Origin: a virus
Virus record (IMG/VR): IMGVR_UViG_3300035665_000033
Coordinates: 1-61,768 of that record
Reading direction: 5' to 3' (one strand)
Length of the DNA: 61,768 nucleotides
The number at the start of each line of letters is the position of its first letter. The first letter of the stretch is position 1. Under the pieces are notes generated by a model that was not told the DNA's origin, ran no database searches, and saw only the letters and a list, made by a program, of their open reading frames with translations. Shown piece by piece: positions 17,703 to 60,154 of the stretch. The position numbers were made by a program, and so were the translations under genes.

Positions 17703-20700
17703 TGCTGATAGACAGAATAGTTCCAACTGGATTAAACCAGGACAAACACCCTCTTGATTTGGTTGAGGGTGAGATCTATGATGCTATAAACATGAGTATA
17801 GCTGACTATGGGGGAGAGGGGGACGGTCTTTATAAAGTTGTAAAAGGAAACCTTGCAGTTAACTTCTCCTCTCTGCCAACTGACTCTTCACAAAAAGTAG
17901 TTGGATCTGTCGCTGACTATCAGAGAAACCACATATACTTTTTTGTAAAGTCAAATACCTCTACAAATAATGCAATATACAGATATAGTTCTGACGAAAA
18001 TGCTGTAGTAAAGGTAATAGGTGGATCTTTTTTGGCTCTAGGGGATTTCGTTAAGGCCAACATAGTAAACATAGTCAACCAGCATGTGGACGAGACGGTA
18101 GAAGAACTTGAAGAACAGTGCATGCTGTTCTTTACTGACGGCGTAAATCCGCCCAGGAGAATAAATGTAGACAGGGCGATTAGAGGGGAGTTTGCAACTT
18201 ATGATACAGACAACCTTTCTTACATGATCTCCGCATGTAAGGCCGCCCCAAACGTTATACCGACCGTTTTTTTTGATACTGATCCAGACTATAAAGCAAA
18301 CAATTTCGCGAGAAACATGTTTCAGTTTGCGGTCCAGTATTTGTACAAGGACGGAGACGAGTCTGCTATATCTGGATATTCTACTATAGCTGTAAATGAC
18401 TTTACATACTTAGAAGGCATAGACACAGCTCTTCTACCTGTTCCGAAGGTGGATAAGTACGAAAACAATGTATGTGTTATAGAGATCTCAAGAATGCCTA
18501 TGGAGGGTGTCTCTGTATCGCCTATAAATACCATACCAGCAACGTTAAATATATTCGAAATAAATAAAGTAAGAATTTTAGCCAGAAACGGAAACTCTGG
18601 AGCTTTCTTTGTGGTTGATGAGGTATATATTGATCAGGATGAATTTAGACTTATGCCTGGGTCTGGTTCTTCTTCGCCTAAAAAAATATACGATTCTATA
18701 AGAAGACAGTATAGGTTTTATAACGAAGGGTTATACGAATACTCTTCATCTCTTGACACAGACAAGCTATACGATAACGTTCCATTTACAGCCGTAGGCC
18801 AATGTGTAGCCGACGATAGAGTTATGTATAGCAACTACACGGAAACATATCCAAACGTAGACGTCACTGGAACAATAACTCCAATATACTCAGATTATAA
18901 TCTTCTTTCTACGTCAGACATATTCTATGATATAACTCAAAATCCAACTCAGAATATAGTATCAATAGCTAGTGGAAGCAGAAATATAACAGTTAATATG
19001 ACTGCAAATCCAGGCGGATTCACAGCTCTCAATACCGTTATACCAGCTGGATCAAAGTATAGGTTGTCTTTTATGTTTAGACCCCAGGGGTCTTTTTATT
19101 CAACATTATCTAATCAAACTCCTCTGAAGCTAAAGATGGAGGATAGCAGTGGAGACCAATTTGAACTTTGGGTAGATAGCACTACATCAATGAATCCAGT
19201 TTTTACAGAAGCTGATCAATCTTTAGAAAGGAATGTAGACATTTATGTTAATATAGATGAAGATACTACTGTTGCTGATTTAAAAGACATACTTATAAGT
19301 AGGCTTCTTTCAACTCAGATAAAGTATAATTCAGACATGGGTTCTAGTGGGCTTAATGGAGGCCCTCATCAGTTCTTAGTGGCAGGCTCTTTGTCAAGTG
19401 ATTTTGCAGTTGGAGATTTAGTTTCTTTCTCTTACATAAATCAAAGAATTCAATACACTTGGGGGTTTTCTGTTACATCCACCCCAAATTCTAATTTAAT
19501 AACTATAACCCCAGAACTTGTTGATGCAAAAATAATTAGAACAGCAACGAATGCTATATACACATCTAATGAATACAGAGTATTTAAAGGTCAATCAAAT
19601 TATGACGTTAAAATTACTGGCCAGTTATTTAATAAAAATTATGTAAATTACACTGGGTATGAAACTACTATACCTCAGAACTCATCTTTTACTTATGTGA
19701 TTTCGGCTCTACAAACGAACTTAAGAGCAGTTAGATCGTTCAAGGCTGGAAGCACTCATGAGCTTGGTGTTGTTTATTACGACAAGTTCAATAGGTCTGG
19801 ATATGTAAACATTCTTGGCTCTGCTTATGTAGATTACTTCGGATCGTCAGCCAGAGCTACAAAGAATGGGCCGTGCGCTCTTAAAGTAAACATATCTTCA
19901 GCTCCTCCTTCATGGGCAGAGAGATTTCAAATAGTTTATTCTGGTCCTTCTACTATAGACAGTTTTACTACATATACGACTGGAGGGGCATATCCCAAAA
20001 GAATAAAAGACGGAAGCTCATATAACGTAGACACTAAATCTAAGCTTATATATGTCTCCTTGAATACGCTAGAAAAGTTTATGGCCGAAAAAGGAGCCAA
20101 TAAAACATATTCATTTACTCCAGGAGACAAATTAAGAGTTGTTACGTATAACTCAACAACAGACGGAACAAATGGATCTCCGTTCGCCACTGTTACATCA
20201 ACTGCTATAAACGGAGCGTTTGGCGGAAGAATAGTAGAATTTGATGTTGTTGGCTTTGAAGTTTTGGGGACTGATTCAGCAACTAATCCAATTACAGATT
20301 CGTCAACTGTAAACGAAAAATATACTGGTGATTTTGTTATTCTTTCTGCTCCAGACGTAGAGTCTGGAATGTATAAATATGTTGGATGGGATTGGTACAG
20401 TGTCACTGGTAATACGTATCCAAACAACGACTCATCTACTCAGCTTTCTTATTGGGGAAGAGAGTCTGTTGTTGAAATATATAGCCCAGCAAAAAACACA
20501 GAACAAAAGACATACTATGAAATAGGCAAGTCTTACCCATTTATTCTGGATAAAAACGGAGCGGTTGTACATCCTAATGTGGTAGTGTCAGAAGGGACCT
20601 GTCACTTCAGGCCATCTATGTGCAAGACGGCCAGCTATAGCTATTTATGGCAGGAGGTAGGGAGCATAAAGGAATGGGTCTATAAATTAAAGTTTATAGA

Positions 20701-47550: not shown

Positions 47551-48084
47551 TTAATCTTTGATTAAGCGGACAGAGAAGCCGCTTCGTGAGTTGGAGTAGT
47601 CACGGAAGACATTCGAGCCTCCAGAGTCCAGGTGGCGGTTCCATGCGTACGTTTTAAACGCGGAGGACGTGGAGGAAGACCACCAAAACCCGTGGTAGCC
47701 CTGAATGAAGAAGTAACCATAGTCGTCTCGGTATCCTGAAGGGGTGCCATTGAATCCTTTGACGGGCCCAATTCCGTTCCACTTTTTCGTCGATTTCAAC
47801 AAGTTACCCGCTTTCTCATTACCACCGCAGTAGTCAACAAGCTGTTGCCACTCGTCATCTGACGGCACGTGGAATCCTGTAGGTGCAAGACCTCGCGGGT
47901 CGTTGACTGCGTACCAGTTGTAGTAACACTCTCCGTTTTCGGGGTTGATGCACATGGCAGATTCTTGCAGCATCACCCACTCGTCGGAATCCTGAATAAT
48001 CGGAATAGGGTCTCCGTTACGGAACTTGAACACTCGGAGGTTCTTCGTTGTCCAAACTTGCGATCCGATTTGAATAGTTTTCAT
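47551..48084 (-). CDS. FISUMP-like (Fibrobacter major paralogous) domain protein
   Basis: A 177-residue protein starting MKTIQIGSQVWTTKNLRVFK at 48084, in ATGA overlap with the upstream gene; a longer frame to 48204 is shadow of that gene. The order QVWTTKNLRV, WYAVNDPRGLAPTGFHVPSD, KWNGIGPVKGFNGTPSGYRD and GFSVRLIKD is the FISUMP/C-type-lectin-like domain of Bacteroidota and Fibrobacter. These domains bind ligands and are usually secreted, but no signal peptide is seen here. Finding it among small early genes, not fibres, is unusual. Confidence 0.82.
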   Translation of the reverse strand: MKTIQIGSQVWTTKNLRVFKFRNGDPIPIIQDSDEWVMLQESAMCINPENGECYYNWYAVNDPRGLAPTGFHVPSDDEWQQLVDYCGGNEKAGNLLKSTKKWNGIGPVKGFNGTPSGYRDDYGYFFIQGYHGFWWSSSTSSAFKTYAWNRHLDSGGSNVFRDYSNSRSGFSVRLIKD

Positions 48085-48464
48085 GCTTGTTTGTATAAGC
48101 GGTTTTCGATTGAAACGATTGTCTTGTGGGTTGTCCCATCTAAGATGTTGCCGTTGATGTCCGTCCAATTCGGCTGACGTTTGGGGTTGTAGAACACCCT
48201 GCACTTCTCGTAGGTGAGTGTGAGCGGCGCGTCATTCGTGGGCATAACCTCAAGTGATTCGCATGCCACCCATGAGCACACACTCTTGTTCTGCCCCTCA
48301 AAGATTTTCTTTGCAGTCGAGGCGCGGTTAACCAACCTTGCGTTGGTCATGGTGAGGCGAACTTCTGACGGGTCGTAGTAGGAGACAGCATCTCCAATCC
48401 TGACCTGCCAATGCATGAAGTGAACGCCCTTGCTGAGGTGAAACCTGACCTTGATACGGCTCAT
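48081..48464 (-). CDS. Hypothetical beta-rich protein
   Basis: A 127-residue protein starting MSRIKVRFHLSKGVHFMHWQ at 48464. ATGA overlap at both ends. Strands WQVRIGDAVSYYDPSEV and CRVFYNPKRQPNW; Trp- and Cys-rich. Not recognised. Confidence 0.6.
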   Translation of the reverse strand: MSRIKVRFHLSKGVHFMHWQVRIGDAVSYYDPSEVRLTMTNARLVNRASTAKKIFEGQNKSVCSWVACESLEVMPTNDAPLTLTYEKCRVFYNPKRQPNWTDINGNILDGTTHKTIVSIENRLYKQA

Positions 48465-49162: not shown

Positions 49163-49465
49163 TTAGACGAAAAAGTATTCCTTGAGTGATTGCAGGTCCT
49201 CGTTGACCTTAGCGCTGCTTCCCTTGAGGCCGAAGTAAGCCTTGATGTCAGACACCTTGAAGTGGCGGTGTGGCTTCAATCCCTTTGTGTACAGGTTCAT
49301 CTGACTTGACGCTATAATCAAGTTGTAAAGACAAAACTTGATGTCCCGACTTCCTTGGGAAGATGCAATGTGGATGGTCTTCGGGTCATCCGATATGATG
49401 TCTTGGTAGAACTTGGAGGACTTTTCAACGGATACTCCGTTGATGGTTGTTTTGATAGTGCTCAT
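49163..49465 (-). CDS. Hypothetical 100-residue protein
   Basis: Starts MSTIKTTINGVSVEKSSKFY. The C-terminal half, KPHRHFKVSDIKAYFGLKGS, looks like a small helical DNA-contact region. The start is preceded by ATTACGTT, a one-base variant of the ACGTC motif. Not recognised. Confidence 0.55.
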   Translation of the reverse strand: MSTIKTTINGVSVEKSSKFYQDIISDDPKTIHIASSQGSRDIKFCLYNLIIASSQMNLYTKGLKPHRHFKVSDIKAYFGLKGSSAKVNEDLQSLKEYFFV

Positions 49466-49491
49466 AACGTAATGTTATTGGGTTTGATTTA

Positions 49492-49571
49492 GAAGTCAGG
49501 GCGGAATCGAACCGCCACGGACATGGAGTCCGTTCCCGTAGGCTGCGCCGCAGCTTCCCCTACGCTGACTT
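49492..49571 (-). tRNA. Divergent tRNA-like element in early operon
   Basis: On the reverse strand the 5' AAGTCAG (49565-49571) pairs perfectly over 7 bp with CTGACTT (49493-49499), and GGCGG-TTCGATT-CCGCC forms a perfect T arm. Between them the usual D and anticodon arms are replaced. A CGTAGG/CCTACG stem encloses a GCTGC-GGC-GCAGC hairpin, and an ACGGA-CTCCATG-TCCGT arm follows, joined to the T arm without a variable region. If that last arm is the anticodon arm, the anticodon would be CCA (Trp), but base 37 would be U. No CCA tail is encoded. It may be a type-II-like tRNA, a decayed tRNA or a tRNA mimic. Confidence 0.5.
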
Positions 49572-49578
49572 GATGTGA

Positions 49579-49938
49579 TTAGGCCGTCTTATTCAGCCAT
49601 TTGGCATAAGGGAATCCGCTTTTTCCGAGCAGGTAGACGCAGTACGATCCGTTACGGGTGACGTGAACTCTCCGACCTTCGAACTCATCCTCCGTAGGAG
49701 TGCCAATCCAAACGGGGTATCCAGCTCCTGACTTACCAACAGCCACCACATAACGTGCTCCACTAGAGGTTTTCAGGATGTCGAACTGCTTGCCGTCTAC
49801 GACGAACTTGTCGTTGGTGGCCACACCTGAGGTGACATCAAATCCGCCGCCTCCTGAGGAGGTTTTCGCTTCGAAGTTCGACTGAGCGGAAACTGCTGCG
49901 CCGATGGCGAGCAAAGAAACAAAAATGAACGTTTTCAT
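49579..49938 (-). CDS. Secreted or periplasmic hypothetical protein
   Basis: A 119-residue protein with a clean Sec signal, MKTFIFVSLLAIGAAVSAQS; cleavage after AVSA is likely. The mature part is small, beta-rich and Gly/Ser-rich (FEAKTSSGGGGFDVTSG, YVVAVGKSGAGYPVWIG, YCVYLLGKSGFPYAKWL) with two GKSG(A/F)xYPxW-like repeats. An exported early protein might block superinfection or alter the envelope. Function unknown. Confidence 0.62.
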   Translation of the reverse strand: MKTFIFVSLLAIGAAVSAQSNFEAKTSSGGGGFDVTSGVATNDKFVVDGKQFDILKTSSGARYVVAVGKSGAGYPVWIGTPTEDEFEGRRVHVTRNGSYCVYLLGKSGFPYAKWLNKTA

Positions 49939-59474: not shown

Positions 59475-59541
59475 GCCCTGTAAGCTCACGGGAGCCCCGA
59501 CTAATAATCGGACGCGGCAGGTTCGATTCCTGCACAGGGCG
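59475..59541 (+). tRNA. Short atypical tRNA, anticodon reads AAU
   Basis: GCCCTGT pairs with ACAGGGC over 7 bp and GCAGG-TTCGATT-CCTGC forms the T arm. The D arm GCTC-ACGG-GAGC has a 4-nt loop. The anticodon arm has 4 good pairs with loop CTAATAA, giving AAU (Ile). At 67 nt and with A34, it is unusual for a bacterium or phage. May be decayed or functional in an odd way. Confidence 0.6.
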
Positions 59542-59560
59542 CTACACCAATTCAATTAAA

Positions 59561-59635
59561 ATGATTTTTCACCTTTATTTCCATTTGCTGGCTGACCGCA
59601 TCGGCAACCAGGCTTGGTACCACCTGTACTTCTGA
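59561..59635 (+). CDS. Possible 24-residue ORF in tRNA cluster
   Basis: ATG after TTCAATTAAAA, the same upstream bases as the endolysin start, opens MIFHLYFHLLADRIGNQAWY. Hydrophobic helix. Only length and start context support it. Confidence 0.3.
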   Translation: MIFHLYFHLLADRIGNQAWYHLYF

Positions 59636-59641
59636 TAACCT

Positions 59642-59715
59642 GCGCCCGTAGCTCAGCTGGATAGAGCAACAGCCTTCTAAGCTGTGGGTCACAGGTTCGA
59701 ATCCTGTCGGGCGTA
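59642..59715 (+). tRNA. tRNA-Arg(UCU)
   Basis: Clover-leaf with GCGCCCG/CGGGCGT acceptor (one G-U), D arm AGCTCAGCTGGATAGAGC, anticodon arm ACAGC-CTTCTAA-GCTGT (UCU) and T arm ACAGG-TTCGAAT-CCTGT. It reads AGA, which is very common in the late genes. Confidence 0.93.
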
Positions 59716-59783
59716 CAATTCTTTGACTTGCTGGTCTTTATTTCGCGTTCTGCACCTCTACGATTAAATAGGTGCGATTAACT

Positions 59784-59857
59784 GGGGGCGTAGCTCAGTT
59801 GGTTAGAGCAGGATGCTTATATCATCAAGGTCACAGGTTCGAGTCCTGTCGCCCCTA
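59784..59857 (+). tRNA. tRNA-Ile(UAU)
   Basis: GGGGGCG/CGCCCCT acceptor with a G-U pair, T arm ACAGG-TTCGAGT-CCTGT, anticodon loop CTTATAT (UAU) on a 4-bp GATG/CATC stem. It reads AUA, a codon very frequent in the late genes. Confidence 0.88.
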
Positions 59858-59891
59858 CTCTTGACATCACAATCTGTGATAGCAAGAAAAC

Positions 59892-59964
59892 ACGTCAGTA
59901 GCTCAATTGGTAGAGCATCGGTCTCCAAAACCGAGGGTTGCAGGTTCAAGTCCTGTCTGACGCG
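59892..59964 (+). tRNA. tRNA-Trp(CCA)
   Basis: ACGTCAG/CTGACGC acceptor with an A-C mismatch at the top pair, anticodon arm TCGGT-CTCCAAA-ACCGA (CCA) and T arm GCAGG-TTCAAGT-CCTGT. No encoded CCA end. Confidence 0.88.
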
Positions 59965-59968
59965 CCAT

Positions 59969-60041
59969 GCTTCTGTAGCTCAATTGGTAGAGCAACTGAT
60001 TTGTACTCAGTAGGTTGAGGGTTCGACTCCTTTCAGAAGCT
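59969..60041 (+). tRNA. tRNA-Thr(UGU)
   Basis: GCTTCTG/CAGAAGC perfect acceptor, anticodon arm ACTGA-TTTGTAC-TCAGT (UGU), T arm GAGGG-TTCGACT-CCTTT with a partial stem. It reads ACA. Confidence 0.87.
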
Positions 60042-60047
60042 CTATAT

Positions 60048-60119
60048 AGTCAGGTAGTTCAACTGGTAGAATGGCTGGCTTCATGCCACTGAATGTAGGT
60101 TCGACTCCTACCCTGACTG
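60048..60119 (+). tRNA. tRNA of uncertain type, anticodon UCA or CAU
   Basis: AGTCAGG/CCTGACT is a perfect acceptor and GTAGG-TTCGACT-CCTAC a perfect T arm. The best anticodon stem, GCTGG with CCACT, has a C-C mismatch and frames the loop CTTCATG, reading UCA (opal suppressor) but with U37. Shifting one base gives CAU (Met) with a purine at 37 but breaks the stem. Body and D arm resemble Met-type tRNAs. Confidence 0.8.
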
Positions 60120-60154
60120 CCAAACTCGGGAGTAAAACGGCGCCAAACTCGGGA
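60119..60154 (+). repeat. Direct repeat pair downstream of tRNAs
   Basis: GCCAAACTCGGGA occurs at 60119-60131 and again at 60142-60154, 23 bp apart, beginning at the discriminator base of the last tRNA. GAGTAA and TTACTC nearby could pair. Possibly processing, termination or operator sequence in the 143-bp gap before ThyX; no promoter of the common form is seen in the gap. Confidence 0.6.

Follow-up and report, generated by a model that had tools for sequence, protein, structure and literature searches.

A predicted tRNA-like RNA gene carried by several unrelated phages

What, if anything, is encoded by a short stretch of phage DNA that looks like a tRNA at its ends and departs from one in between? 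The window analysed here is the whole 61,768 nt of an IMG/VR phage record (IMGVR_UViG_3300035665_000033), and the stretch, which we call W-RNA, runs on its minus strand from 49571 to 49493, with a discriminator C at 49492. It starts 7 nt past the stop of a 119-aa gene (c13) that has no Pfam or PHROG match and ends 26 nt ahead of the next ATG. Ribonucleotide reductase, primase/helicase, Erf and exonuclease genes lie in the surrounding minus-strand operon, which we call early because of this replication-type content. The initial annotation, which described an RNA between two early genes and transcribed in the same direction, was right in coordinates and strand, with "early" taken from the gene content of the operon. 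The features are:

49579..49938, minus strand: c13 gene, 119 aa, upstream of the RNA; in relatives, the slot on its 3′ side is taken by tRNA or by tRNA-like RNA
49492..49571, minus strand: whole tRNA-like RNA (W-RNA), 79 nt plus discriminator C
49565..49571, minus strand: acceptor stem 5′ strand AAGTCAG; 7/7 pairs, 5/7 covary on both sides
49559..49564, minus strand: D-position stem 5′ strand CGTAGG; 6 bp in all three sequence types
49543..49558, minus strand: D-position loop, 16 nt, with conserved AGCYGCGGC; the nested hairpin here is not conserved
49537..49542, minus strand: D-position stem 3′ strand CCTACG (covariation alignment)
49534..49536, minus strand: GGA linker, the sole unpaired linker of the four-way junction; invariant in the three sequence types
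49517..49533, minus strand: anticodon-position arm ACGGA-CTCCATG-TCCGT (5 bp plus 7-nt loop); the same in all homologs
49500..49516, minus strand: T arm GGCGG-TTCGATT-CCGCC; loop invariant, basal pair covaries
49493..49499, minus strand: acceptor stem 3′ strand CTGACTT (covariation alignment)
49489..49492, minus strand: discriminator C, then TAA; CCA not encoded; C invariant in all homologs
49163..49465, minus strand: 100-aa gene downstream of the RNA; the nearest relative has another gene instead and keeps the RNA

Among cultured phages, relatives of the window primase come mostly from phages of Flavobacteriia (51 records, all <60% identity). In a nearest-DNA search of cultured phages, the 10 kb around the RNA matched nothing, and the RNA element itself had only short, chance-like matches. 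Two further observations concern the neighbourhood. The motif ACGTYATG occurs at 16 sites (e.g., 47040, 48844, 49148, 49463, 50798 and 51133), several of them at early-gene starts, against 2.8 expected and with none of 100 shuffles reaching as many; the gene swap in the nearest relative falls at an ACGTYATG leader. The protein encoded at 47551–48204 (minus strand) is possibly a diversified host-recognition protein, which we take to resemble the variable C-type-lectin-like adhesins.

The acceptor stem (AAGTCAG/CTGACTT, 7/7 Watson–Crick) and the T arm (5/5 stem pairs, canonical T loop) are perfect, and no variable region separates the anticodon-position arm from the T arm, both as originally described. 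The RNA has a predicted folding energy of −37.7 kcal/mol (z = −3.06; 0/200 shuffles as good). A strict descriptor, requiring seven Watson–Crick acceptor pairs, five Watson–Crick T-stem pairs, a TTCRA loop and 20–100 nt between, matched three places in the window, W-RNA and two canonical tRNAs, and none in 200 first-order Markov simulated windows. The idea that a nested hairpin replaces the D arm held only in part: a non-tRNA 6-bp stem does occupy the D position, but the nested hairpin (GCTGC/GCAGC) is weak, with only 2 bp retained in the predicted minimum-energy fold, and is not conserved, having a C.A mismatch in one homolog (type 2) and differing in the third type. In the D region, conservation lies in the outer 6-bp stem and in the AGCYGCGGC motif of the loop. 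An intrinsic terminator was considered and rejected, as the RNA is not followed by a T run and the terminator scan was empty there.

ARAGORN called six canonical tRNAs at 59475–60122 and missed the RNA at 49571–49492; it found no tmRNA either. The tRNA covariance search that had been suggested for this locus was run with Rfam. At the Rfam gathering threshold, five of the six canonical tRNAs were recovered, tRNA was the only family to reach threshold in the window, and W-RNA fell below it; in permissive mode its best match was a weak one to tRNA-Sec (RF01852), at 19.3 bits against a cutoff of 47 (20.8 bits for the homologous copy in contig L230). Two of the canonical tRNAs are themselves unusual. 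The 68-nt tRNA-Ile(aat) at 59475–59542 has shortened arms and is called by ARAGORN and missed at the Rfam cutoff. For the canonical-looking tRNA at 60048–60122 the call is SeC(tca), and for the corresponding tRNA of the nearest relative (L142, 18150–18224) it is Ile(tat); the anticodon register is ambiguous, either stop-reading or Ile CAU/UAU.

We searched for homologs with DNA patterns. A first, narrower pattern matched the nearest relative only; one built on the D-position arm had matches in four viral contigs, and one built on the anticodon-position arm matched 11 stretches in 10 contigs, with the fold in five of these. Matches in L231, L232, L233, L235 and L236 lacked the full stem set and were taken as chance. 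The RNA is present in the window and in five contigs, L002/L005/L202 (one contig), L227, L228, L229 and L230/L234 (one contig), that is, six contigs with three distinct RNA sequences. The copy in the nearest relative (L002) matches the window without a change over 121 nt, flanks included, and the downstream gene there is a different one; at a flank identity of 97.7%, zero changes in 121 nt has a probability of 0.06, so this copy alone proves little. The second type (L227, L228 and L229, with L228 and L229 100% identical over 9 kb) differs from the window sequence at seven positions, six of them the two sides of three exchanged pairs and the seventh in the D-position loop. In the third type (L230/L234), the acceptor stem is almost wholly different, the T stem has one bulged base, and the D-position stem has one exchanged pair and two wobble changes; across the three types, that stem shows one double change and two wobble changes.

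In the alignment of the three types, all 63 tested pair cells were paired and 7 of the 21 pairs had changed on both sides; slid registers gave at most one double-changed pair, and 0/500 shuffles were as good. This count omits two T-stem pairs, where a gap is misplaced in the alignment, and draws on three sequence types only, of which two are close to each other. No change is seen at any of the five pairs of the anticodon-position stem; the stem counts as conserved, and its pairing as predicted rather than proven by covariation. The invariant parts sit in the core and at C73 (GGGA, ACGGACTCCATGTCCGT, AGCYGCGGC, TTCGATT and C73), and the stems vary. Judged from these comparisons, the predicted structure of the three types is well supported, and the locus at 49571–49492 is a real RNA gene; the original call of a tRNA-like RNA, and the conservation in relatives named as its check, are borne out by covariation across unrelated phages. 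A covariance model (R1) built from the three types found no further locus in 84 + 45 sources. It had no match in Bacteroidota genomes (0/395, and 0/1 run singly), a search that had no positive-control genome, and a host origin was set aside on this result. No description of the RNA was found in open papers, subscription literature lying mostly outside the search.

How closely related are the phages that carry it? At a blastn E-value of 1e-3, the window had no similarity other than the RNA to either L228 or L234. The window and L227 had in common the RNA and one more 200-nt segment at 68%; L228 and L234 had the RNA only, and L227 and L234 two other segments besides. L227 and L228 are related, with other segments at 70–76%, yet the ~100 nt around the RNA are identical. 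Among proteins, tail-fibre-like segments are all that the window has in common with L227, L228 and L229; the others are different, L228 encoding a terminase, L227 a replication O-like protein, and L234 amidase and tail proteins. By these sequence measures, the same small RNA gene is carried by several unrelated phages. The RNA starts 6–7 nt past an ORF stop in four of five distinct contexts (L228 and L229 counted as one); in L234 it lies 88 nt past the previous ORF, directly behind a terminator-like hairpin.

The c13 gene, which has homologs in ten other loci, gives a second view of the position. Downstream of it stand the window-type RNA in the window and L002, a canonical tRNA-Thr in L203–L206 (four contigs, all from the same sister phage), family B, which is a different tRNA-like RNA, in L207, L208 and L209, and just a simple hairpin in L210 and L211. 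From the occupants seen across these loci, the c13 slot can be empty or be filled by a tRNA or by one of two tRNA-like RNAs. Another tRNA-like RNA, of 161 nt (family F), follows the c7 gene in L047 and L049 and shares its contigs with family B (L207 and L208).

We then applied an acceptor plus T-arm descriptor to 2.50 Mb made up of loci and retrieved pieces, with overlaps between loci left in. It gave 54 matches, 35 of them distinct, versus 0 and 1 in two Markov simulations. Ordinary tRNAs make up roughly two thirds of the 35; the remainder group into families that share the handle and differ in their cores, being intergenic and in the same operon, and the smallest tRNA-like RNAs in relatives measure 45–48 nt. 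Family D (L164–L197) comprises 34 viral stretches, with the T-arm half in 33 and the other cut by the contig end; a near-invariant tRNA handle encloses an insert of 3–84 nt, hypervariable yet base-paired, at the place of the anticodon arm. Of 21 distinct inserts longer than 3 nt, 20 were folded, and 20/20 were better than the shuffle mean, three of them by <1 standard deviation. In bacterial genomes, the 12 pattern matches to family D were put down to chance, none having the T-arm half. For family E (10 contigs), covariation was tested on eight sequences. Its inner D-arm stem was paired in 48/48 cells, with both sides exchanged at 5/6 positions (permutation p 0.0004); the acceptor was paired in 49/56 (p 0.04) and the third arm in 31/32 (p 0.014), and the outer D stem, at 39/40 paired, was not significant (p 0.12). 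Several RNAs of this wider class did not fold clearly better than shuffles when taken alone (z from −0.14 to −2.52, L084 disregarded). None was recovered at the Rfam gathering threshold in eight loci, and in the nearest-DNA search of cultured phages, families D and E had no match and family F one weak 26-nt match.

Families D and E occur in tandem at L069 2902–3143, L068 1192–1486 and L172 10473–10688, as small early-operon arrays that can be likened to a tRNA cluster made of non-tRNAs. Directly upstream of family D elements (for example, at L120 ~18500–18610 and L068 1114–1190), another RNA looks structured: its closing stem is G-rich/C-rich, GAAACGTCA recurs in it, and it has a T run.

As to function, our best reading, which we hold with reasonable rather than strong confidence, is that W-RNA is a tRNA-processed, non-decoding tRNA mimic. 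The transcript of this noncoding RNA gene would fold into a four-way tRNA-like cloverleaf, with a tRNA acceptor/T domain and non-tRNA D and anticodon arms. It would be transcribed with the operon, and host RNase P, RNase Z or exonucleases, and the CCA-adding enzyme would most likely excise it from the operon transcript, CCA being added after processing; such processing is likely because the RNA has the RNase P module and C-TAA. Once excised, it would be a stable, trans-acting mimic and, putatively through the invariant anticodon-position arm and loops, would engage a host factor that binds tRNA. A trans-acting mimic is favoured because the core is fixed and the stems drift, and a pure cutting role would let the core drift. 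Among the three functions offered in the initial annotation, a tRNA mimic engaging host factors appears to be the best fit. As a hypothesis only, the target might be a tRNA-targeting defence factor, a natural candidate because anticodon nucleases are a known phage-defence theme (PMC10264068). The L234 copy, behind its terminator-like hairpin, counts against our best explanation as regards expression.

The fold could alternatively be cis-acting punctuation that merely brings RNase P and RNase Z to the polycistronic mRNA, for cleavage between the two genes, and leaves the excised RNA jobless, which we regard as possible but doubtful. Its position between ORFs on the operon strand, the very short variants in relatives (45–48 nt) and the perfect acceptor/T helix all speak for it, a bare acceptor/T hairpin being a model substrate of RNase P according to the review PMC11143913. 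But in unrelated phages the core has changed far less than the stems, the cores of family E covary and their loops are invariant, two such RNAs stand in tandem in some relatives, and the L234 copy is not tightly flanked by operon genes. An RNase P processing signal, as had been proposed, is a plausible step, but taken for the entire role it leaves the invariant anticodon-position arm unexplained. We consider it improbable that W-RNA is an aberrant but decoding, Trp-like tRNA with anticodon CCA, even though its anticodon-position arm offers 5 bp and 7 nt with U33 and CCA, and its acceptor 5′ strand agrees at 6/7 positions with the tRNA-Trp of the phage itself (chance 0.0014 for Trp and 0.008 for any of the six tRNAs). 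It has no variable region, no U8, a U at position 37, and C73 as discriminator where bacterial tRNA-Trp identity includes G73, and it is rejected by ARAGORN. The acceptor match fades in homologs (TAGTCGG, TGGGGGG), and with its loss there a Trp origin was also discarded; the RNA is probably unable to read codons.

Short identical DNA in otherwise dissimilar phages, and a downstream gene swapped right after the RNA in the nearest relative, would also suit a DNA-level element, used in integration or recombination, with no more than a resemblance to a tRNA; this is very improbable, given the paired compensatory changes in the stems and the lack of an integrase-type match among 23 distinct proteins scanned (window including the RNA neighbours, L227, L228 and L234). 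A decaying tRNA gene, suggested by the canonical tRNA-Thr at the same slot in four contigs of the sister phage, is the remotest of these readings and largely refuted by intact stems, compensatory changes and an invariant core in unrelated phages. Nor is the proposal of a tRNA that gained a local hairpin supported: unrelated phages share the core as a unit, the nested hairpin is unconserved, and its near-copies in the window are at chance level (six matches, two being the site itself; 8/100 shuffles reach six).

Beyond the non-decoding mimic favoured for W-RNA, we suggest, speculatively and with little confidence, that phages, several probably of Bacteroidota, share a large and so far unrecognised class of non-decoding tRNA mimics that pass horizontally between them. 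These would combine an acceptor/T handle with interchangeable cores, occupy early-operon tRNA slots and disarm tRNA-targeting defences, and the T4 species 1 RNA would be of the same kind. The tRNA-like RNAs described here are invisible to standard tRNA finders and Rfam, yet many viral contigs carry them, and phages with little or no other common DNA have them in conserved form. They suggest that phages reuse the tRNA acceptor/T handle as a module for other RNAs. They also offer a comparative route to the T4 species 1 RNA and candidates for RNA-based counter-defence.

Set beside known RNAs, W-RNA is like tRNA (RF00005) in its 7-bp acceptor, its T arm with a canonical TTCRANN loop and its cloverleaf, and unlike it in having no variable region, no canonical D arm and no U8/A14 set; its junction linkers are 0/3/0/0, whereas those of tRNA are 2/1/4–5/0. 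With tRNA-Sec (RF01852), its best weak Rfam match, it shares a 6-bp D-position stem, but it has no long variable arm and falls below the cutoff of 47. The tRNA-like domain of tmRNA also keeps the acceptor/T helix and replaces the rest, and tmRNA has a G3.U70 pair, a tag ORF and pseudoknots; W-RNA has an invariant G3–C70 and, at 80 nt, is too short for a tag ORF and pseudoknots. Bacterial Y RNA (YrlA) has an Rfam family, and no match to it reached threshold in the window. An acceptor stem plus T stem-loop is an efficient model substrate of bacterial RNase P, and a T4 tRNA precursor has UAA in place of CCA (both from PMC11143913). W-RNA contains the model substrate module exactly and, unlike it, has an extra conserved core that is dispensable for the enzyme.

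The T4 species 1 RNA (rnaC; L163 1409–1547) is 139 nt long, and its 3′ part reads CCGGG-TTCGAAT-CCCGG followed by an acceptor-like strand. We take it to be the small stable RNA of T4 encoded beside tRNA genes; to our knowledge its function is unknown, and it has been unexplained since the 1970s. Compared with Karamviruses (Enterobacter phages PG7 and ZX13), one acceptor and one T-stem pair are exchanged, and the other arms show pairwise changes too. Phage AV115 has the 3′ 32 nt of rnaC unchanged, in a stretch that overlaps an annotated tRNA-Asn. Model R1 had no match in L163, no sequence relation being detected, and rnaC differs from W-RNA in its length, two acceptor U.U mismatches, another core and a place in a tRNA cluster. 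Both nevertheless have the same plan, an acceptor/T domain set on non-tRNA D and anticodon arms.
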